Shown: piece by piece, positions 4,892 to 20,299 of the stretch
Position numbering within the stretch: the first letter of the stretch is position 1
Layout: each line of letters starts with the position of its first letter
Assembly (NCBI RefSeq): GCF_901542335.1
Contig: NZ_LR594036.1
Location: 1,798,001-1,862,000 of the forward strand
Source: Streptococcus porcinus
GTDB taxonomy: Bacteria; Bacillota; Bacilli; Lactobacillales; Streptococcaceae
DNA: 64,000 bases
Direction of reading: 5' to 3'
The notes under the pieces: generated by a model
What the model saw: only the letters and a program-made list of their open reading frames with translations
The model's database searches: none
Told to the model about the DNA's origin: nothing
Program-made: the position numbers and the translations under genes

Positions 4892-7765
4892 TTACTTTCT
4901 AACAATTTCTTCCATGATATAAGCTTCAAGTGTGTCATCAACTTGGAGGTCGTTATAATTTTCAATCATTAACCCACCTTCTTGAGCATTACCAACTTCT
5001 TTAACATCATCCTTATAATGTTTCAAGCTAGCAATTTTGCCATCGAAAACAACCACGCTATCACGGATAACACGAACACTAGAGTCGCGTGTTATCTTAC
5101 CATTAATAACCATGAATCCACCAATTGTTCCAACTTTAGATACCTTAAAGGTTTCACGAACAATAGCTTCCCCAAGAATTTTTTCTTTGAAGACTGGATC
5201 TAGTTTACCTTTCATCGCTTCTTCTACTTCTTCAATAACTTTGTAGATAATGCTATGAAGACGAATTTCAACTTCATCAGATTCAGCTTGTTGACGTGCT
5301 TGTGGAGTAGGGCGGACATTGAAACCAATAATAACAGCATTTGAAGCTTCAGCTAATGTAACGTCTGATTCATTGATCGCGCCTACAGCCGAATGAACAA
5401 CATTAACACGAACACCTTCAACCTCTATTTTGAGGAGTGAAGCTGCTAAGGCTTCTACTGAACCTTGAACATCTGCTTTAATAATTACGTTAACTGTCTT
5501 AATTTCACCTGCTTTAAGAGTATCAAACAGATTATCAAGACTGACACGTTGCGTATTTTGGCGTTGTTTAAGAAGAGCACGTTTGGCACGCTCTTCACCT
5601 GCTGCTCGAGCTGCTTTTTCATCTTCATAGACAGCAAAATGATCGCCAGCCATAGGTGTTTCATTTAAACCTGTGATAGAAACAGGCGTTGATGGAAGGG
5701 CTGATTTTACACGACGACCGAGATCATTTGCCATAGCACGGACACGACCAAAGGTGTTACCAATAACGATTGGATCTTGAACGTGTAGTGTCCCTTGTTG
5801 AACAAGAAGGGTTGCTACAGCACCTTTTCCTTTATCAAGCCTTGCTTCAATAACGGTACCAATAGCTCTTACTGTTGGATCTGCCTTCAGCTCTTCTACT
5901 TCAGCAACTAAAAGAATTGTTTCTAGTAAAACATCAATGTTCTTATTGAATTTAGCTGAAATCTCAACAAATTCACAGTCACCGCCCCAGGCTGTGGAAA
6001 TAATACCGTATTCAGCCAGCTCAGCAATCACGCGCTCTGGGTTAGCACCCGGTTTATCAATTTTGTTGATAGCAACAATAATCGGAACTTGTGCAGCTTT
6101 AGAGTGGTTAATTGCTTCGACTGTTTGTGGCATAACGCCATCATCTGCCGCGACAATTAAGATAGTGATGTCAGTAACTGATGCCCCACGTGCACGCATA
6201 CTAGTGAAGGCAGCATGTCCAGGTGTATCCAAGAAGGTAATTTTCTTACCAGCTTCTTCGATTTGATAGGCTCCTATATGTTGAGTAATCCCCCCTGCTT
6301 CCCCAGTAGCTACCCGTGAATTACGCAAAGTATCCAATAAGGTTGTTTTACCATGGTCAACGTGCCCCATGATGGTTACAACTGGTGCCCGTTCAACAAG
6401 ATTTTCTGGATTAAGGTAAGAGTCGTCCTCAAAGAAACGTTCGATATCAGCATCATCAATCTCAACTTTTGCTTTTGCTTCAATCCCATAATCAACCATT
6501 AATAATTCAATGGTATCGCCATCTAGAGATTGATTTTGGGTTGCCATTACCCCCATCATAAACAGTTTTTTAACGATTTCTGCTGGTTCACGTTTAATTC
6601 GTTTTGCTATATCGGCAACTGTCATACCCTCAGTATATTCAAATTCTTTTGGTAATTCATGGAATTTACGCTCAGTTACTGGTTTTGAAGCGACACTATT
6701 ATTCCTGTTATTTTTGCCTTTTTTAGGTTTTTTGTTCCAGTTACTATTTCTTTGATTTCTCACTTGGTTCTGATTATTCCAACTCTTTTTATTTTGTTTT
6801 GGTCCATTGTCATAACCTTGATCAGTGTCATTGACTTTTTCAAGACGTCCCTTTTTACGACGTTTGTCAACAGGCTTAGGAGTAGTAGCTAGGACCTCAG
6901 GTGTAACTCTATCAGCTGCTGTTCCTTTAGATTGCTCAGCTGCTTTTTTTGCAGCTGCTTCGGCTTCCTTTTCAGCTAAGCGACGTGCTTCTTCTTGAGC
7001 AATTCGAGCTTGTTTTTTGGCTTCTTCTTGAGCACGAAATTGATTTTCACGCTGCTTGGTATACTCAGCATTTTGTTCAGCCTTTAGAGCAGCTGCTCGT
7101 GCTTTAAAATCAATTTTAGGAGCCGGTGCCTGTTGTTGAACCCGATTATTTTGTTGCTGCCTATTATCTTTAAAACGATTATTGGAGCGATTAGGTGTTG
7201 TTGTCGGACGATTATTGTCACGGTTGCCAAATTGACGGTTATCTTGTTGATTTCCAGATTGATTTGGTTTACCTTCAAATCGACGTTCTCTGTTCTGCTG
7301 TTGACCTTTACTAGCAAATCGATCATTTTGCTGACCTTTGTTGCGATTGTTAGAATGGCGATCATTAGAACGATTCTGTTTTCCTTCTTGTTGACGCGCA
7401 GCCTCTTCTTTTGCTCTAGCCTCACGCTCAGCCTTAAAGTTACGACTTTTTGGCCTTGCATGAGCAGGATTAACAGGTGCACTTGACCCAACTTCTTCAC
7501 TCTTAGAGGTCGTAGCGACTACTTTCTCTTCAGATTTTTGTATTTGAGCCGGCCTTGAGTCTGTTTTTACTTCTTCTTTGGTTACTGACTGTGTGGCCGT
7601 TTGGGATGTACCTGCAAAACTTGAAGCAATTTTACTTGCTGTTGATTCATCGACACTAGAAGCGTGGCTTTTGACATCTAATCCAAGCTCTTTTGCTTTT
7701 TCAACAACTTCTTTACTTGTTTTACCAATCTCTTTGGCAATTTCATGTAATCTTTTCTTTGACAA
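4892..7765 (-). CDS. infB: Translation initiation factor IF-2
   Basis: GTPase that places initiator tRNA on the 30S subunit and promotes subunit joining. The 957-aa protein has an IF2_N domain at residues 1-50 and a long charged, Gln/Asn/Arg/Lys-rich linker (about 70-370). A second IF2_N region follows. The G domain from about 465 carries [17 protein letters not shown] and NKID, and domains II to IV follow. It comes 19 bases after ylxQ in the rimP operon. The low-complexity linker explains the many open frames seen on the other strand. Confidence 0.97.
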
Positions 7766-7784
7766 TTTGTGTCCTCCTACTCGT

Positions 7785-8087
7785 CTATTCCATAAGAGTC
7801 CTCATTTTCTTTGAAAATCCAGCATCCGCTATGGCAACCACTTTTCGCGCTTTACCAAGAGCAGAACTTAATTCCAGTGCATTTAACACTGTGGAGACTT
7901 CTACATTATAATACTTACTTTTATCTGTAATCTTTTTAGTTACATTTGGTCCTGCATCGTTTGCTAGAAAAATAAGCTGAACGTTTTGATTTTGAATGGC
8001 TTTAACAACCAATTCTTCCCCAGAAACAACTTTTCCCGCTCGCTGTGCTAGACCAATGAGATTAGCCAGTCTTTCTAAATTATTCAA
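7785..8087 (-). CDS. L7Ae-family RNA-binding protein YlxQ (RplGA)
   Basis: Ribosomal protein L7Ae/L30e/S12e-family protein of 100 aa, conserved between ylxR and infB in Firmicutes. The family signature ([32 protein letters not shown]) is visible. It overlaps the end of ylxR by 8 bases, implying translational coupling. It probably binds a kink-turn RNA, but its target is not known from the sequence. Confidence 0.88.
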
Positions 8088-8376
8088 GGCCTAACTCTCT
8101 TCTTTTAACTTTGTGTTCCACATAAGCTATCAATTCATCATAAAAACTTTCAGGTACATCAACGGCAAAACTACGATTAAAAACTTGTTTCTTTTTTGCC
8201 ATAATTGCTTCCTGATTATCAAGCTTAATATAGGCTCCGCGACCATTTTTCTTACCTGTTGGATCTATAAAAATGTCACCTTCCTTGGTTTTTACAACAC
8301 GAAGCAAATCTCTTTTATCAATAATTTCGCCCGAAACTAATGACTTACGTAAAGGTATTTTTTTTACTTTAGGCAT
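8080..8376 (-). CDS. YlxR family protein (DUF448)
   Basis: Nucleoid/RNA-binding YlxR-family protein of 98 aa with the GRGAY core (DPTGKKNGRGAYIK, residues 39-52). It lies in its conserved place between nusA and ylxQ, 15 bases after nusA. The N-terminus KKIPLRKSLVSGEIIDKRDLLRVV is family-typical, although the usual CxxC-like segment is absent. The physiological role is not defined here. Confidence 0.88.
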   Translation of the reverse strand: MPKVKKIPLRKSLVSGEIIDKRDLLRVVKTKEGDIFIDPTGKKNGRGAYIKLDNQEAIMAKKKQVFNRSFAVDVPESFYDELIAYVEHKVKRRELGLE

Positions 8377-8391
8377 AAAACACCTCTTTTC

Positions 8392-9546
8392 TTATTCTTC
8401 CTCAGTCGTTGTTGAATATTGATCTACTTCTTCTGGGGTATTGATCTGCTCCTGTTCAGCTTCTAGTGCCTCATATTCACTAGCCGATTTAATATCAATA
8501 CGATAACCCGTTAAATGGGCTGCTAAACGAACATTTTGACCCCGACGACCAATTGCAAGAGATAATTTACTATCAGGTACAACAACTGTTGCACGCTTGC
8601 TATCTATTTCATCAAAAAGAACCATATCAACCTCAGCGGGAGCAATCGCATTATAAATAAATTCAGCTGGATCGTCTACCCATTGAATCACATCAATGTT
8701 TTCTTCTACTGGAATTTCAATTCCTGTCTTAACATCGTAACGTTTCGGATGAAATTTACTAATAACTTTTTTGATGTTACTTCCACCACGACCTACAATG
8801 GTTCCGATAGCGTCAACATTTGGATTATGACTTCTTACAGCTACCTTTGTCCGATCACCAGCTTCACGTGAGACGCTCATGATCTCAACAGTACCATCAA
8901 ATACTTCTGGAATTTCTTGTTCCATGATGCGTTTGATAAATTCTGGGTGGCTCCTACTTACGAAAACATTAACACCTTTTGGATTATTTTCAACTTTGTA
9001 GACATAGACTTCAATACGGTCATGAGATTTGAAAGTTTCTCCTGGAATTTGGTCTTGGTGTGATAGCTGTGCTTCAAGCGAACCTAAATTCACATAAATG
9101 AAGCGTTGATCAAAACGTTCAACTGTCCCTGTCATGATTTCACCTTCATGCTCTTTATATTCATTGTAGGTGATTTCACGCATTTGGCGACGCATTTTTT
9201 CCATAATCGTTTGCTTAGCAGATTGTGCTGCAACACGACCAAATTCAGCTACCGATTCTTCAAAACGAATTTTATCTCCTAATTCATATGCGGAACTGAT
9301 AGCTAATGCATCACTTAAGCTAATTTCTAAACGACTATCAAAAACTTCTTCGACAACTTCACGGACTGAAAAAACCTGAAAGTCGCCTGTTTTTTCATTA
9401 AACTCAATCACACACGACTCTGATTGACCATAACGTCTCTTATAAGCAGATTTTAAAGATTCCGTAACGGCTTCAATAATATCGTCCTTGTTAATGTGTT
9501 TTTCTTCTTCCAAAATACGGAAGGCTTCTAGCATTTCTTTGCTCAT
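8392..9546 (-). CDS. nusA: Transcription termination/antitermination factor NusA
   Basis: RNA polymerase-associated elongation factor of 384 aa. Domains in order are an N-terminal RNAP-binding domain (1-125), S1 (about 135-200, GEIMTGTVERFDQRFIYVNL), and KH1 and KH2 (GTIVGRGGSNIKKV and LAIGRRGQNVRLAA). A short acidic tail follows. It lacks the C-terminal acidic repeats of enterobacterial NusA, as is usual in Firmicutes. It is the second gene of the rimP operon. Confidence 0.96.
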   Translation of the reverse strand: MSKEMLEAFRILEEEKHINKDDIIEAVTESLKSAYKRRYGQSESCVIEFNEKTGDFQVFSVREVVEEVFDSRLEISLSDALAISSAYELGDKIRFEESVAEFGRVAAQSAKQTIMEKMRRQMREITYNEYKEHEGEIMTGTVERFDQRFIYVNLGSLEAQLSHQDQIPGETFKSHDRIEVYVYKVENNPKGVNVFVSRSHPEFIKRIMEQEIPEVFDGTVEIMSVSREAGDRTKVAVRSHNPNVDAIGTIVGRGGSNIKKVISKFHPKRYDVKTGIEIPVEENIDVIQWVDDPAEFIYNAIAPAEVDMVLFDEIDSKRATVVVPDSKLSLAIGRRGQNVRLAAHLTGYRIDIKSASEYEALEAEQEQINTPEEVDQYSTTTEEE

Positions 9547-14756: not shown

Positions 14757-14789
14757 CTTTTGATAGCGTTACTAAAAAAGTAAGAACTC

Positions 14790-14857
14790 GTAGAACGGAA
14801 CTTCCTTATATAAACAGTCTAAAGCTTTTTTATATAAGGAAGTTCCGTTCTACTTTT
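14790..14857. terminator. 25-bp perfect inverted repeat, likely terminator of the hit operon
   Basis: Arms 14790-14814 and 14829-14853 are exactly complementary over 25 bases with a 14-base loop. An A-rich stretch lies to the left and TTTT to the right. The position suits a terminator after hit and the coiled-coil gene. The length of perfect pairing is far beyond what termination needs and could instead mark a small mobile palindromic element. Confidence 0.65.
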
Positions 14858-14938
14858 CTAGGGCAATATGATAATCGTAAAAAGTATAATAATTTTGATA
14901 TTAAATAGTAAAAAATATTTACTTTTTCCATAATATTA

Positions 14939-14985
14939 CATTTAGTCAAAAACTTTACATTTTTGATAAAGCTTTTGACTAAATG
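14939..14985. repeat. 19-bp inverted repeat with one mismatch, candidate operator
   Basis: Arms 14939-14957 and 14967-14985 (beginning CATTTAGTCAAAA) pair with a single mismatch around a 9-base spacer. The right arm overlaps a TTGACT -35 element at 14975. There is no T-run after the repeat, so it looks more like an operator than a terminator. It sits in the AT-rich zone upstream of the Rgg-like gene. Confidence 0.55.
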
Positions 14986-15062
14986 CAAATTGTTCTGGTA
15001 AACTGATAATCATGTTTAAAGCAGCTGGACTAACCAGCTCAATCTTTCCCGTGGGAGAGTAG
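14975..15062 (+). other. Candidate short transcript with promoter, two hairpins and a 16-codon frame
   Basis: TTGACT (14975-14980) and TAAACT (14999-15004), spacer 18, predict a transcript starting near 15011. It would contain two hairpins, AGCTGG/CCAGCT and CUUUCC/GGAGAG. A 16-codon frame 15012-15062 (MFKAAGLTSSIFPVGE) starts at the predicted 5' end without a ribosome site. It could be a structured leader RNA or a small RNA; the peptide is less likely. The rest of 15063-15373 shows only weak repeats and a TTG-started 64-codon frame that I do not recognise. Confidence 0.35.
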
Positions 15063-15373
15063 TGTTTCATTATTTCTTAATTAGAATGAAATCATTTGAT
15101 TTTCTGTAAAGTGGTTTGCTGTCACTCAACAAGTTTTTTGAATATACCTCATATTTATCAAAATAGTATCCTACTTTTAATTAAAAACTTGAACATCAGA
15201 AACAAAGTCGGTAATATTATTTTCTTTAGAGATGATAACTATGATAGAGTTTCCTTATTTACCTATTTATTAAAGCGACTTTATACTTAAAAGGTAGTCA
15301 AAGTAGCTAGAATATTAAAACAATTAAAATAGATGCAACCATTGAGTACGCCTAAAAAATTAAGGAGACAGAT

Positions 15374-16231
15374 ATGCAATATATGGGAGAAGTATTCAAA
15401 ATGTTACGTACTTCAAGAAATATTTCTTTAAAAGAAACAACAGGTGATGAATTTTCTCCATCTATGTTAAGTAGATTTGAAAATGGAGAATCAGATATAA
15501 CAATTACTAAATTATTAGTTGGACTAGCAAACATTCGGACGGATTTAGATGAATTCGTTTACTTAGTAAACGGTTTTACAATGTCTCCCTATAATGAACT
15601 AAAGAGTAATATATGGGATGCAATCTCGAAAAACAAATTAGCTACTTTACATCAGATGTATACTAAGGAATTAGATAACTATCACTTGTTAAAAAAAGAA
15701 ATCTTTTTTTTAAATGCTCTTATAATAAAAAGCCAAATGCTTTTTTTAGATGAACATACCCAAATGACCAAAGAAGAGGAACAATTTTTATATGATTACT
15801 TTTTTTCCGTAGATATTTGGGGTAATTATGAATTAAAATTATTTTCAGATATCTCGCTATTATTACCATTAGAAATGTACATAAAATATACGAGGGAAAT
15901 GCTAAATAAAATAGATTTTTTAGGTGATTTTGGAAAAAACAATAATTTAGTTAATAGTATTTTATTGAACGGAATGTTTAAATCAAATAAAGAAAAGAAA
16001 GTATCTTCAGCTGCATATTTTAATAATATGATCAAAAAAAATTTTTTTGAAGAAAATGATACATATTTAAGAATTGTTTATATGATAGCAGAGGGACAAT
16101 ACAAATATTGCAAAGGCGAGAAAGATATCGGATTACAACAAATAAAAGTTGCAATAGACATTTTAAAAGTACTAAATTGTGACGAAAGTGCAGAATATTA
16201 CTCAAACAGCTTACAAGAGTGGCTAAAATAA
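15374..16231 (+). CDS. Rgg/GadR/MutR-family transcriptional regulator
   Basis: 285-aa cytoplasmic regulator with an N-terminal XRE helix-turn-helix (about 5-60, FKMLRTSRNISLKETTG...SPSMLSRFENGESDITITKLL). A helical repeat domain of the Rgg type fills residues 75-285. Relatives are controlled by short secreted peptides or act on neighbouring bacteriocin genes. Start ATG 15374 has AAGGAGA upstream. It is followed by a terminator and then the putative peptide-synthetase operon, its probable target. Base composition is markedly AT-rich compared with the flanks. No obvious hydrophobic SHP pheromone gene was found nearby. Confidence 0.85.
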   Translation: MQYMGEVFKMLRTSRNISLKETTGDEFSPSMLSRFENGESDITITKLLVGLANIRTDLDEFVYLVNGFTMSPYNELKSNIWDAISKNKLATLHQMYTKELDNYHLLKKEIFFLNALIIKSQMLFLDEHTQMTKEEEQFLYDYFFSVDIWGNYELKLFSDISLLLPLEMYIKYTREMLNKIDFLGDFGKNNNLVNSILLNGMFKSNKEKKVSSAAYFNNMIKKNFFEENDTYLRIVYMIAEGQYKYCKGEKDIGLQQIKVAIDILKVLNCDESAEYYSNSLQEWLK

Positions 16232-16239
16232 TTGAATAA

Positions 16240-16274
16240 ATTCAAATTAAGATAATTAATTTGGATTTTTTTTA
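16240..16274 (+). terminator. Terminator after the Rgg-like gene
   Basis: CAAATT and AATTTG form the stem with a 9-base loop, followed by GGA and eight T. The stem is AT-rich and of modest strength. Confidence 0.6.
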
Positions 16275-16357
16275 TTATTGATAAGTATTGAAAATAGCAC
16301 TTAATAGCTTAAAAAGCATATAAAATATCAAAATATATAGTTTGAACATATACACAC

Positions 16358-16385
16358 TTTGAAAAATTTGGAATTTTAGTAATAT
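16358..16385 (+). promoter_or_regulatory. Promoter with embedded palindrome upstream of the peptide gene
   Basis: TTTGAA (16358-16363) and TAATAT (16380-16385) with a 16-base spacer. Between them lies AAAATT-TGG-AATTTT (16363-16377), a palindrome that could be the Rgg operator. The predicted transcript begins about 30 bases before the 29-codon peptide gene. Confidence 0.45.
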
Positions 16386-16422
16386 ACTTAAAAACATAAA
16401 CAAGAAAGGTTTGGTATTAAGC

Positions 16423-16512
16423 ATGACACAATTTGCACATGAAGCTAGTAAACAGTTAGTGCCTAAACAAGAGGTTACTCTCTCTTGGAAATGCACTATT
16501 ATTAAAGGTTAA
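16423..16512 (+). CDS. Putative RiPP (class III lanthipeptide-like) precursor peptide, 29 aa
   Basis: A 29-codon gene encodes a polar, helical-looking leader (MTQFAHEASKQLVPKQE) and a short C-terminal core VTLSWKCTIIKG with one Cys (24) two residues after Ser21, plus Thr19 and Thr25. This Ser-x-x-Cys spacing is the minimum for one lanthionine ring. It lies between an Rgg-type regulator and a LanKC-like synthetase, has its own promoter, and is followed by a hairpin, as is common for precursor genes. The ribosome site (AAAGG) is about 13 bases away. An in-frame TTG at 16411 could add four residues. The role is inferred from position and composition. Confidence 0.55.
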   Translation: MTQFAHEASKQLVPKQEVTLSWKCTIIKG

Positions 16513-16527
16513 AAAGCAACTTAAAAG

Positions 16528-16576
16528 ATCAAAAACGTTAAAGAGTGATAAAAGTTTGAGCGTTTTTGATTTTTTT
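16528..16576 (+). terminator. Hairpin terminator/attenuator between peptide gene and synthetase operon
   Basis: ATCAAAAACG (16528-16537) and CGTTTTTGAT (16561-16570) form a perfect 10-bp stem with a 23-base loop, followed directly by six T. Partial termination here would give much more peptide mRNA than enzyme mRNA. Confidence 0.75.
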
Positions 16577-16599
16577 AATTTTAGAAGGAGTATCTCATT

Positions 16600-16785
16600 A
16601 TGTCAAAAATTACTATTACGAAAAATTGCATTTCAAAAGAATGTCCTAATAAGAAATTAAGTAATTTTGAAAAGCGATTTGAATTATTTATTGAAAAAAA
16701 AGTTAAGAAAATTTTAGATCATCCAGAAAGATATCCCGAAATTCAAGTTATATACGGTGAAGATTATGAACCTGGCAAGTTTTAA
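16600..16785 (+). CDS. Unrecognised 61-aa protein in the lanthipeptide-like locus
   Basis: Small charged protein beginning MSKITITKNCISKECPNKK with two Cys (10 and 15), then a Lys/Glu/Phe-rich helix and a YPEIQVIYGEDYEPG tail. A strong AGAAGGAG lies 9 bases before ATG. Its last 20 bases overlap the start of the synthetase gene, so the two are translationally coupled. It could be an accessory leader-binding protein, a second unusual substrate, or an immunity factor. No family is recognised and none of these is shown by the sequence. Confidence 0.65.
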   Translation: MSKITITKNCISKECPNKKLSNFEKRFELFIEKKVKKILDHPERYPEIQVIYGEDYEPGKF

Positions 16786-18709
16786 ATATGTTGATTCTAA
16801 TGAGTATGCTTTACCTGAATATGGATTTAAAATCCATATTTCAGGTACTTTACAAAATTATAAGGAAATATTTGATTTTGTACTTCCCTTTTTAGACAAA
16901 AATAATCTATCCTATAAATATTTAAAAGATAAGGAAAACGTTTTTGAAAATTTATCTGATATGGAAATACCCTCCGAATCTGGAAAATTAATAACAATTT
17001 ATCCTAAAGATAGAGAACACTGTAAAATTTTATTAAAGGAGTTATATAATTTAATACCTATTGAATTTGAAGGAGTTTATATTCTTAGTGATAGAAACTA
17101 TAAAGATTCAAATATAATTTTCTATAGATATGGACTTATTCAACCCAAGGAAAATACTTTTAAAACAATCATTCCTACTCTAATTGGGCCAAACGGAGAG
17201 CAGTGGAAGGATTTTCAAAAATGTTATTTTGATTTACCAAAATGGATTGAAGATCTACAAGAAAAACAAATTTTTAAGTCGTTATATTTAACTGAAAATT
17301 ATAAAATAGAAGGTTTATTAAAGCAATCTAATGGTGGAAATATTTATAAGGCTACTAATATAACCTCTAAAAAAGAAGTAGTTATTAAAGAATCTAGATC
17401 ACATGTCCTTTGTACATCTCAAGTTAGTAAAACAAAAATGAGAGATAACGAATGGAATATATCAAAAATGGTTACTGATAATCTTAAAAGGATTGAAAAG
17501 GTCGATGAATGGGTCAATAAATATTATATTTATGAATATATAGATAGTCAAAATGTATTAGATTATTGTAATGAGCTTAACTTATTTTCATATAGTACTG
17601 ATAATGCAGACGAATTAGAAACTAATCTTCTAAAATTTTATAAATTATTAACTTTTTTCAATAATATTCTGGAAACAGTTAGATCCTTTCACAGCCGTAA
17701 CATTATACTTAATGATATCCATAATAGCAATTTTATTATTAATAATAAAAATAAAGCTATTTTTATTGACTTAGAAAATTCTTATTTATATGGGAGTTCT
17801 CCGCTAGTTGGTGTATATTCTGAAATTGGATTAAAAGAATGGATTACAAAAGATGGAAAAATTTCAGATTGTAATAAAGTAGGAAACTTATTATTATTTT
17901 TAATGCGAAAGTTACATATAAAAAATAATAATATTTTAACAAATGAACTAAAAAAATTACTATTACAAAAAGGAATTCATTCAAATATTGATAACCTTAT
18001 AACTTATCTTCTAAGTGATGATGCGACCATTGAGCAAGCTATCTATATAGCAAGAAATAATATTTACGCATATAGGTCTGATAATAATTATTATTTTAAT
18101 GATTATGTAATTACCTGTAACGATTGGAACGAGGAACTTACTAAGATAATTTCCCTTCAGGAGATGCTGATTAATCAATATTCTGGTATTTTGGGACAAC
18201 CTACTGAAGTTTTTAATAAACTGAAATCAGAACCTAATCTAGGATTGGATGGGACAGCCGGAGTGCTACTATATCTCCATTCAATCTCCTATGATAATGT
18301 ATTAATTGAGTACGGCATAGAATTCATATTGAAAAAATTAGTTAAAGATTTCAATGGAAACAAAGGTATAAAAATCTCTGATAACTCAGTATCTCCATAT
18401 TTATCTAGTGGAACAGCTGGAATAATTCAACTATTAATAAATGTGGACCCGATTAAGTATATATCCTCTATAAAAAAACTATCTGAAGCATTAATGTTTG
18501 AATTCGCTCAATTTTGTGGAATCTGGGACGGGATGTTAGGAATAGGAATAACATTATTACAAGTCTATGAAATAACAATGGATCAAAAGTATTTAAACAA
18601 AGCAAACAATTTATTAATTAGCAGTAAGATTATGTCTGAACATGATGTGAAATTAAAATATGAGTTCATGTATGTTATACAAATTTTTTATAGAAAAGAA
18701 TTGGGATAG
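16766..18709 (+). CDS. LanKC-like class III lanthionine synthetase, cyclase domain shortened
   Basis: The 647-aa protein has the order of class III lanthipeptide synthetases. The N-terminal lyase-like region has KIHIS (about 22), SGKLITIYPKD (72-82) and FYRYG. A kinase domain follows (Gly-rich loop near 187-196, Lys208 in VVIKE, catalytic LNDIHNSN with Asp317, metal Asp335 in FIDLE). A LanC-like region then has GLDGTAG, LSSGTAG and GIWDGMLG at about 493-592. Full-length relatives exceed 800 aa, and here the later LanC repeats and zinc-ligand region are missing. ATG 16766 (GGTGA upstream) is preferred over GTG 16757. Composition is very AT-rich. It would phosphorylate and dehydrate Ser/Thr in the peptide; cyclisation ability is doubtful. 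Confidence 0.85.
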   Translation: MNLASFKYVDSNEYALPEYGFKIHISGTLQNYKEIFDFVLPFLDKNNLSYKYLKDKENVFENLSDMEIPSESGKLITIYPKDREHCKILLKELYNLIPIEFEGVYILSDRNYKDSNIIFYRYGLIQPKENTFKTIIPTLIGPNGEQWKDFQKCYFDLPKWIEDLQEKQIFKSLYLTENYKIEGLLKQSNGGNIYKATNITSKKEVVIKESRSHVLCTSQVSKTKMRDNEWNISKMVTDNLKRIEKVDEWVNKYYIYEYIDSQNVLDYCNELNLFSYSTDNADELETNLLKFYKLLTFFNNILETVRSFHSRNIILNDIHNSNFIINNKNKAIFIDLENSYLYGSSPLVGVYSEIGLKEWITKDGKISDCNKVGNLLLFLMRKLHIKNNNILTNELKKLLLQKGIHSNIDNLITYLLSDDATIEQAIYIARNNIYAYRSDNNYYFNDYVITCNDWNEELTKIISLQEMLINQYSGILGQPTEVFNKLKSEPNLGLDGTAGVLLYLHSISYDNVLIEYGIEFILKKLVKDFNGNKGIKISDNSVSPYLSSGTAGIIQLLINVDPIKYISSIKKLSEALMFEFAQFCGIWDGMLGIGITLLQVYEITMDQKYLNKANNLLISSKIMSEHDVKLKYEFMYVIQIFYRKELG

Positions 18710-18717
18710 GAAATTAA

Positions 18718-19936
18718 ATGAACATACTAACTAGAAATTCTGTATTTAGAATTATTACTATATCAAGATTTTTAAGTGCTTTAGGGTCGTATATGTATAA
18801 CATTGTATTTATTGTTTATGCCACGACGCTACCTTATTCTAATATTGCCCTTTTTATTGCAAATATAGTCACTATTATCCCTACTGTATTTACTTTTTGG
18901 ATTGGTATAAAAGCTGATAATACTAAAAATAAAGTAAAATTACTTATTTTAATGGGGTTCCTTCAGTCAATCTTATTTGTCATCATAGCACTATTAATGA
19001 AAAATAAAACATTCCTAGTATTTTCTATTGTAGGTTTTATTAATGTTATATCAGATGCTATTAATGATTTTACAAATGGGCTACGTCTTCCAATTATGCA
19101 AAAAACATTGAGTCAGAGAAATTATATGAGGCATACTCTTTTTCCCAATTTATATCATATCTTTCCAATATACTTGGACAAGTTCTAGGAGTTTGGTTAC
19201 TGACTACATCAAATCATAATTACTCTTTTGTAGCAGTCATTAATGCCTTAACTTTCTTATTATCTACATTAATACTTTTATTAAACAAACAAAAGTTAAC
19301 ATATCATTTTATAAAAACACCTACTGAAAAAATTTCATTATCTGAGCAATTCAAAGAGATGTATGCCACAATGAAAGAAATATTCAAGAAAGTTGATGAT
19401 GTATCTTTTGTTAGATTATTAATGTCTATTTTGATATTAAATGTTATAGGGGGAGCAGTTAATAGTATTTATAATTTCTATTTTATGAAGCATCAATTAT
19501 TTGGTTTACACTATGGCCAATCATTAGTTATTGTTGAATCAATTTTAATAGTAGGTGCTATATTAGGAAATTTAACTCCAAACGACTATTTTTCAAAATT
19601 ATCAATTTCTAAATTAGTTATTATTCAAAGTGTTGCATTTGGTTTAGTTGGTATCTCTAATATAACTAAGTTATCACCAATTTTTGGATATTGTTTCTAG
19701 CATTCGCAGCATTCATTATGGGAAAAGCTACACCTAAATTAGATTCACTCTTAATGGAAAATTTACCTACGAATATGTTAGCCCAAAGTAATAATTTTTT
19801 AGGACTTCTTTTTACGCTATCACTACCTTTAGGGGTATTCATATTTTCATCTTTAGCTATATACAGTATCATTTTATGCTGGATTTTATTTACTATGTTA
19901 TCTTTAATAGCAATAATTTTTATTTATATTAAATAA
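18718..19936 (+). pseudogene. MFS transporter, broken by two frameshifts
   Basis: Three successive frames encode one major-facilitator protein of about 400 aa. Frame one starts at ATG 18718 (SFLSALGSYMYN-like start and several spans). The reading must shift near 19125 in a TATAT stretch to continue with YEAYSFSQF, and shift again near 19685 in a run of T to continue with FWILFLAFAAF. Each unshifted frame stops soon after. The gene begins 8 bases after the synthetase with GGAAATTA before ATG, so it belongs to that operon and would be the natural exporter of the peptide. As read it cannot give a full transporter. Confidence 0.8.
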
Positions 19937-19971
19937 AAATTATATAGAGTATATCCTAAAAAACAGAAATT

Positions 19972-20058
19972 TTACCCGATACCAACTGGAGTCTCTATCC
20001 ACTGACCTGAACGATACATGTTTACTGCATTTAATTTAAAATTATAATTATATTTCAT
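19972..20058 (-). pseudogene. Truncated insertion-sequence transposase N-terminus
   Basis: A 28-codon frame encodes MKYNYNFKLNAVNMYRSG followed by QWIETPVGIG and then a stop. The pattern KYxYxFKxxxVxMYRxGxWxETP resembles the first residues of streptococcal IS transposases with an N-terminal helix-turn-helix. Nothing of the remaining transposase is present, so it is a remnant marking the right edge of the AT-rich island. The family assignment is by resemblance and is not certain. Confidence 0.5.
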
Positions 20059-20060
20059 AC

Positions 20061-20097
20061 AAAAACCCCTTTCACTGGATTAGTCCAGTAAAAGGGG
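20061..20097 (-). terminator. Hairpin before the IS remnant
   Basis: On the minus strand CCCCTTTTACTGG and CCAGTGAAAGGGG pair with one wobble around a 6-base loop and are followed by TTTTT just before the ATG of the transposase fragment. It may be part of the insertion-sequence end that blocks read-in transcription. The stretch 20098-20192 between here and the psr terminator shows only a small CTTCGG-type hairpin and no gene. Confidence 0.6.
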
Positions 20098-20192
20098 TAC
20101 ATATCATTTTATGTCTAACCATGGGGGGTGTTCTTAACAGGTGATTTATTGTTACACCCCTTCGGAGTATAACAGACTAAAAACCTCATAAA

Positions 20193-20234
20193 CAAAAAAG
20201 GTATAACCCCCATTGAATTCAGGGAATCATACCT
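20193..20234 (-). terminator. Terminator of psr
   Basis: On the minus strand a 13-bp stem including G-U pairs (AGGTATGATTCCC / GGGGGTTATACCT) with a 10-base loop is followed by TTTTTT. It lies 65 bases beyond the psr stop. Confidence 0.75.
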
Positions 20235-20299
20235 ACAATAATCTGCTTATTTACTTATCCATCTTACTTGAGGTCTAACATAGTTAGGCCTTACTCTTT

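Follow-up and report, generated by a model that had tools for sequence, protein, structure and literature searches.

Positions 15374 to 19936 of a 64,000-nt stretch of Streptococcus porcinus DNA (NZ_LR594036.1; hereafter the window, a label also used for its own locus, enzyme and peptide) hold an Rgg/MutR-family regulator, a 29-codon peptide gene, a terminator-like hairpin, a 61-aa open reading frame (ORF), a 647-aa protein resembling the class III lanthipeptide synthetases (LanKC), and the remains of a major facilitator superfamily (MFS) transporter gene. A first-pass annotation had listed these elements, and the regulator, the peptide gene with its Ser-x-x-Cys motif, the hairpin and the 61-aa ORF are present as it described them (Table 1); the MFS transporter that it placed in the same run is not an intact gene. 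The run is also AT-rich, as had been stated, with 25.9% GC against 36.5% for the whole window. The locus is real, widespread and mobile. The loci and genomes with which it was compared carry L- and G-numbers, respectively.

Enzyme and precursor peptide

The lyase, kinase and LanC domains of the 647-aa protein follow one another in the order proposed by the first-pass annotation, with Pfam matches to RamC_N (1.9e-32), Pkinase (2e-6) and LANC_like (1.4e-4). RamC_N (PF25816) scores 112.7 bits for a cut-off of 27. The other two stay below their own cut-offs (27.8 vs 31.7 for Pkinase and 21 vs 23.2 for LANC_like), as does the NCBIfam equivalog NF038151 (234.2 bits for a cut-off of 575, best stretch at residues 6-345). 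The assignment of the enzyme therefore leans on its relatives and on a structure model. Among 15 aligned members RamC_N was matched in all and Pkinase in 13, so that the profile check suggested for the class III lyase and kinase domains came out in favor of the assignment. As in a LanKC, the central Ser/Thr kinase domain of the window enzyme has its catalytic residues. No Cys or His is invariant or nearly invariant past residue 371 in the 15 members, i.e., zinc ligands are absent. SPY (543-545) and G589-M590-x-G592 are invariant in the cyclase-like region.

An AlphaFold model of the window enzyme based on the 15-row alignment (mean pLDDT 78.6, pTM 0.74) matches ThurKC, SalKC, PneKC and CuvL over 499-554 residues, with the highest Z for ThurKC (18.4; root-mean-square deviation, rmsd, 15.6), and unrelated kinases match its kinase domain at nearly equal Z. 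Its cyclase-like part is mostly helical. In the Pfam LANC_like alignment, window residues 493-616 fall on positions 58-192 of a 350-position profile, and HHalign pairs the end of this short LanKC family with the end of the long LanKCs; we do not claim that a particular half of the LanC toroid is missing. A truncation confined to the window was rejected, as relatives stop near the same place (alignment of eight; 614-658 aa across a 17-row set that includes the non-streptococcal L126 and L123 and in which L094 is read from a downstream start codon). The window enzyme likewise gave no support for decay: it deviates from otherwise invariant columns at just three positions, against 0-6 in the other 14 members.

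A peptide ORF of 27-38 codons adjoins 17 of 17 uninterrupted and six of six interrupted streptococcal short LanKC genes. Intact synthetase homologues without the peptide gene, which would have counted against the original proposal, were thus not encountered. The window peptide ends ...VTLSWKCTIIKG. Streptococcal peptides begin MTxF and carry [ST]xxC near the end, and two Lactococcus-type rows begin MKEQ. In a 24-row alignment [ST]xxC is present throughout, followed by 2-14 residues; 20 peptides have a single Cys and 23 are 27-32 aa long. The labionin core S-x2-S-x3-5-C occurs in none of the 24, and the looser [ST]-x2-[ST]-x2-5-C in two. The earlier statements that the substrate is very small and that this is not a standard lantibiotic cluster both hold.

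Synonymous change exceeds amino-acid change in nine of nine pairs of peptide ORFs, which include one duplication within L033 and two pairs with enzyme-lost loci (L174 and L176). The ratio of nonsynonymous to synonymous rates (dN/dS) is 0.05-0.44 in eight pairs; in the ninth, window-L038, dS is saturated. This excess and the conserved place of the ORF in 23 of 23 near-complete loci led us to reject a chance ORF. Together with the presence of the peptide-LanKC pair at every uninterrupted locus and on four of four inspected plasmids (see below), it indicates an association beyond chance. The motif shuffle product for eleven chosen peptides, 6.4e-9, treats relatives as independent and is indicative only.

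A profile of the peptide matched 25 of 279 Streptococcus genomes at E <=1.5e-6. In 22 of these the match falls at a near-complete locus of the short LanKC, most such peptides having been used to build the profile, and the other three are genomes with enzyme remnant or loss (G147, G238 and G021); ten more matches, at E 0.009-0.1, look like noise. No peptide gene was found next to the remnant L101, and the one next to L102, a second and partial copy, is truncated. Two peptide ORFs are present in each of L033-L035. The peptides of L097 (4344-4439) and L098 (4119-4214), encoded on the LanKC strand, have two ring sites, SPGC plus TKSC or TNAC, of which SPGC presumably resembles ring B of nisin.

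The hairpin after the peptide gene was scored against 200 shuffles of 70 nt. A z of -2 or lower was obtained in 14 of 24 loci and was not reached in L031, L032, L033, L035, L040, L091, L092, L099, L126 and L176.

Table 1. Features of the S. porcinus locus, in window positions.
Feature	Position	Strand	Basis
AT-rich inserted island	14757..20299	.	Lies between 94-aa gene (p94) downstream of hit and convergent LytR-CpsA-Psr gene
Rgg/MutR-family regulator, 285 aa	15374..16231	+	Pfam Rgg_C 1.5e-39; TIGR01716 6.2e-31; PDB Rgg-type ~2e-17
Possible Rgg operator GAACATATACACA	16344..16356	+	Pattern and spacing to -10-like box; suggestive only
-10-like box TATACT of peptide gene	16383..16388	+	Sequence; spacing to motif
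Precursor peptide gene (LanA-like), 29 aa	16423..16512	+	Alignment with [ST]xxC in 24/24; purifying selection in relatives
S21-W22-K23-C24 codons, predicted ring	16483..16494	+	Sequence and peptide alignment
Hairpin and T run downstream of peptide gene, probably a partial terminator	16523..16575 (about)	+	Minimum free energy -17.6; z -3.92
61-aa protein, T7-K-N-C10	16600..16785	+	Family alignments
T7-x-x-C10 codons of 61-aa protein	16618..16629	+	Motif in 10-row alignment
Short LanKC-like synthetase, 647 aa	16766..18709	+	Lyase ~1-170, kinase ~175-435, short cyclase-like ~440-647
MFS-like transporter gene broken in three frames, no intact product expected	18718..19936	+	ORF pieces compared with intact homologues

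Distribution and mobility

Searched with the window protein, 23 of 147 Streptococcus genomes matched at E 0.001, long LanKCs included; a seven-row alignment matched 29 of 284 at E <=1e-40. Long LanKCs match over ~320-435 residues only and are thus separable from the short family. Among the 284 genomes the short LanKC is uninterrupted in 17, interrupted in six (G187, by a single stop near the N-terminus, G167, G011, G107, G110 and G130) and present only as a remnant in one (G182). The remaining five of the 29 match at this threshold by long LanKCs only; a remnant of 48 residues is present in addition in G021, one of the five. A contig search gave no match with the window protein alone and 27 loci with the alignment. 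Carriers include S. suis, S. gallolyticus BI02, S. intermedius SK54, S. mitis, S. thoraltensis, S. sciuri, S. ovuberis, S. castoreus, S. taonis and Lactococcus cremoris NBRC 100676.

The window protein also matches 65 plasmid records. Fifteen of them, all from Lactococcus, align over 80% or more of the protein; among these is pMRC01, known for lacticin 3147. Four were inspected (pMRC01, pUL8B, and one unnamed plasmid each of KMGR2-43 and SCB469), and all four have an Rgg gene, an unlisted peptide ORF, LanKC (as two ORFs in SCB469) and MFS. The unit lies beside cadmium-resistance genes in two of the four records, and the KMGR2-43 plasmid has two peptide copies that differ at silent positions only. 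On pMRC01 (L193, NC_001949.1) the complete Rgg-peptide-LanKC-MFS set is at 4921-9065. The PLSDB table, which is incomplete, lists the Lactococcus short LanKC as hypothetical protein (so on pMRC01) or protein kinase and does not list the peptide gene.

A full-length member outside Streptococcus was not found in an order-level sample of 395 genomes; as Lactococcus has the short LanKC, this sample missed strain and plasmid variation. The LanKC-like gene of L103 (667 aa), from another family of the order, matches at 30% over residues 16-336 and was placed outside the short family. Two loci from Clostridia metagenome-assembled genomes, L123 and L124, carry a peptide identical to that of pMRC01 and may be misassigned plasmid DNA. 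LanKC reads as two ORFs in L037, L038, L040 and L041, near the kinase-cyclase boundary in the first two; these could be genuine splits or frameshifts.

Matches to p94 and to the LytR gene are ~90-200 bp apart in four of four fetched relatives (L189-L192) and 5.5 kb apart in the window. The entire block is therefore an insertion, and the island is missing at the equivalent site in all four relatives. Short minus-strand ORFs are found at its two edges (19972-20058, MKYNYNFKLNAVNMYRSGQW..., and 14942-15070, MKHYSPTGKIELVSP...); we take both to resemble insertion-sequence remnants, the former being like a transposase start. DNA overlapping 19972-20058 resembles parts of Agathobacter and Finegoldia plasmids at 78-82% identity, and in the Finegoldia plasmid the similar part falls under a helix-turn-helix protein. 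A phage origin of the unit was discarded, no phage record matching.

Regulator and transporter genes

An Rgg ORF is located upstream in 14 of the 17 uninterrupted loci (split in L036). Distances between family members correlate with r 0.97 for Rgg-MFS, 0.80 for Rgg-LanKC and 0.75 for LanKC-MFS, values in which co-function is not separable from co-inheritance. The operator pattern with a -10-like box at 24-30 bp was found in eight of 25 loci (window, L032, L036, L037, L038, L093, L095 and L096) and is missing in L174 and L175. Six of eight chosen loci have it, compared with 0.39 on average and four at most in 2000 mononucleotide shuffles, but this count is biased because the pattern was first found by eye and was designed from these very sequences.

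Pheromone-like ORFs were sought at 18 loci, over ~800 bp on the upstream side and ~700 bp on the downstream side, using a filter for a sequence like a ribosome-binding site and for hydrophobicity that could miss one. ORFs from the window, L031, L032, L091 and L094 passed, and only those of L031 and L091, which are SHP144-like, resemble each other. The sole match in the window, an ORF of 16 aa, lies antisense to the beginning of the 61-aa gene; having no counterpart in other loci, it was not accepted as a pheromone. No pheromone-like ORF recurs in the clade of the window in this filtered scan. The mitis-type loci L031, L040 and L091 have a different Rgg and a convergent SHP144-like gene ending EWVIIIPFLTNR or EIIIIFPFLTNR, and their signal is probably a short hydrophobic peptide (SHP). 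The description of the locus as "peptide-regulated" is not supported by these observations. In PMC13361665, SHP144 has the sequence EWVIVIPFLTNL, and the Rgg939 regulon, a related precedent, includes a lanthionine biosynthesis protein.

An uninterrupted MFS-like ORF follows LanKC in 15 of the 17 uninterrupted loci, the exceptions being the window and L039, where no such ORF is present at that place. Intact homologues in relatives are 406-426 aa long; Pfam MFS_1 is reached by two of four tested (L126 and L031) and not by L092 and L093. L174 and L175 have lost LanKC but keep Rgg, the peptide, an MFS-like ORF without interruption and the protein of 61-aa type, as if immunity or sensing had been retained.

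Discussion

Observed features of this unit are the order of its genes and of the enzyme domains, conservation, mobility, and selection acting on the peptide gene of relatives. We consider it likely that the locus represents a compact and mobile unit, linked to Rgg, for a class III-like ribosomally synthesized and post-translationally modified peptide (RiPP), making a peptide with a single (methyl)lanthionine ring. The short LanKC would phosphorylate the conserved Ser/Thr of [S/T]-x-x-C near the C-terminus of the ~30-residue peptide and eliminate the phosphate, giving dehydroalanine or dehydrobutyrine, to which the Cys would add to close a single four-residue ring. A protease from outside the unit would then cut off the short leader, and the MFS protein would export the product, presumably a secreted signal or weapon. 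The Rgg-linked unit is best read as working like a class III lanthipeptide system; as a full-length LanC domain is lacking and the NF038151 cut-off is not reached, we file it as a divergent variant.

Several observations weigh against this interpretation. The C-terminal LanC-like domain has ~200 residues, about half of the usual ~370, and LANC_like reaches E 0.01 in only two of the 15 aligned members, so that ring closure by the enzyme is uncertain. Residues 106-171 of the model, part of the lyase domain, have pLDDT <50. The rmsd of whole-length structure matches is large (6-16), which means that the domains fit singly and not as one body. No Rgg lies upstream in three of the 17 uninterrupted loci (L033-L035), and neither a protease nor a known immunity gene was seen in the unit. 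Finally, the MFS gene of the window is in three pieces (18718-19188, 19359-19700 and 19691-19936) in three different frames.

With its exporter broken, the unit is probably silent or crippled in the S. porcinus genome. That it is a decaying passenger making nothing there falls just short of an even chance, as the enzyme is off at so few otherwise invariant positions and the other four genes are open.

As to the role of the product, a signal sensed by the neighboring Rgg, itself a tentative proposal, is slightly favored over an antimicrobial. The processed, ring-bearing peptide would be the ligand of that Rgg, a cyclised pheromone inducing its own operon. The frequent upstream Rgg, the common motif at near-fixed spacing from the peptide promoter and the tight Rgg-MFS distance correlation are consistent with this idea, although co-inheritance alone can yield the last and L033-L035 have no Rgg beside them. 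The scan points the same way insofar as only the mitis-type L031 and L091 gave ORFs that are alike (L040, outside the 18 scanned loci, has one too), but a pheromone gene could have escaped the filter or sit elsewhere, and the mitis-type loci probably use their SHP.

A narrow-spectrum antimicrobial made by the same chemistry, with the MFS protein and perhaps the 61-aa protein acting in export and self-protection, is possible but somewhat doubtful. Turnover of the unit is high, seven of the 24 streptococcal genomes with the short enzyme having it interrupted or as a remnant, and carriage on plasmids, in part beside cadmium resistance, would suit such a role. Loci whose enzyme is lost or nearly lost (L174, L175 and L101) keep an uninterrupted MFS-like ORF, the first two also the 61-aa-type gene, as immunity-keeping strains would; but L174 and L175 keep Rgg as well, and the window retains the enzyme and not the MFS. 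Moreover, no known immunity family was seen and the core is very small.

Small [ST]xxC rings could close without enzyme help. A degenerate or dehydration-only enzyme, whose peptide would be phosphorylated or dehydrated and not cyclised by it, is unlikely: the cyclase is short next to that of ThurKC (residues 491-862; PMC10604976) and LANC_like is scarcely detectable, but the Cys varies no more than the Ser/Thr, each occurring in all 24 peptides, the cyclase-like region keeps its SPY and GMxG signatures, and unaided closure would in any case be open to such a ring.

Class III synthetases are already known in streptococci, and the first-pass statement that they are mostly described in actinobacteria and bacilli is outdated. 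An annotated lanKC is found on the plasmid NZ_CP015284 of Streptococcus salivarius, and PneKC and SalKC, which belong with the precursors PneA and SalA, are of streptococcal origin. These two enzymes (PDB 8WGO, 8W7L and 9UGQ) have 865-871 aa and a full cyclase domain, unlike the short LanKC, and the best phmmer stretch with them covers the lyase-kinase part only. Family III 3 of Streptococcus pneumoniae is likewise a class III cluster in a streptococcus; according to PMC7268733 it has an Sx2Sx3C core and genes for a prolyl oligopeptidase and a CAAX protease, whereas the labionin-type core is absent from the peptides studied here. ThurKC of Bacillus thuringiensis (PDB 8SAM, 8SAO and 8SAP) shares the metal-independent class III layout of the window enzyme. 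Its substrate ThurA1, as presented in PMC10604976, undergoes 11 dehydrations and has a labionin ring and the leader motif LELQL, in contrast to the one [ST]xxC motif found here and to the streptococcal rows, which have no LELQL-type leader motif.

In the RaS-RiPPs, which are under Rgg/SHP control, an Rgg likewise adjoins a small RiPP precursor in streptococci (PMC11002830 and PMC13361665), but these systems use a radical SAM enzyme, whereas the window unit has a kinase-lyase synthetase and its clade gave no recurring SHP-like gene in the filtered scan. The set on Lactococcus plasmids such as pMRC01 has the same gene order and peptide motif in the four inspected of 15; it differs in an MKxxVxxLN-type leader, in an intact MFS gene and in the inspected gaps, which hold no 61-aa gene.

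A description of the Rgg-peptide-short LanKC-MFS unit was not found in the searched literature, which lacks most subscription journals. In the class III mining of PMC7268733, ORFs of <30 aa were dropped and Pfam matches had to reach an E-value of 1e-5; the 29-aa window peptide and the LANC_like match of the window enzyme lie outside these filters, and such mining would probably skip the window copy. If our interpretation is correct, the unit stands for very small lanthionine peptides that form a widespread family and that the size and profile cut-offs of published class III mining would probably pass over, and a cyclase domain of about half the usual size bears on the minimal LanC domain needed. 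The copies on plasmids of dairy Lactococcus make the unit testable in a harmless laboratory host, and through the link to Rgg one could test directly if a peptide with a thioether ring acts as a cytoplasmic pheromone.

The 61-aa protein and variants of the unit

The 61-aa family belongs to no Pfam family, has no Pfam match common to more than one member and gave no PDB relative by sequence profile. Related proteins of 44-70 aa are encoded between peptide and LanKC in nine of the 17 uninterrupted loci (window, L032-L035, L093 and L096-L098), and the gene is present, intact or broken, in four of the six interrupted ones (L037, L038, L041 and L095). M1, T7 and C10 are the only invariants over 10 rows, the motif reading TKNC, TKYC, TRYC, TLSC, THYC, TKSC or TKAC, always within residues 3-10. 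In five pairs dN/dS is 0.12-0.64. The motif shuffle product for six chosen representatives, 1.4e-6, is again only indicative, with relatives treated as independent. On the LanKC tree of 17 rows the presence of the gene requires four changes, a number not exceeded in 56-59 of 500 shuffles.

We raise as a tentative possibility that the short LanKC acts on two substrate types opposite in polarity: the ~30-aa peptide, with T/S-x-x-C at its C-terminal end, and the 44-70-aa proteins, with a T-x-x-C ring site within residues 3-10 and, behind it, the part for recognition, which would be a follower and not a leader. The 61-aa-type protein would then be a class III-like substrate of reversed architecture for the same enzyme. 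Against this, the enzyme-lost L174 and L175 still have TKYC, the gene is absent from eight of the 17 uninterrupted loci, and orphan copies survive. These orphans, 57-aa homologues in three genomes (L177, 2429-2602; L178, 2315-2488; and L179, without a clear ATG start), read TLSL instead of TLSC, which may reflect one event; their genomes have no short LanKC and no peptide match, and no MFS gene is present in the fetched stretch. In L039 and L176, which have no MFS gene downstream, an 88-aa secreted-looking protein rich in Asp and Ser is encoded between peptide and LanKC.

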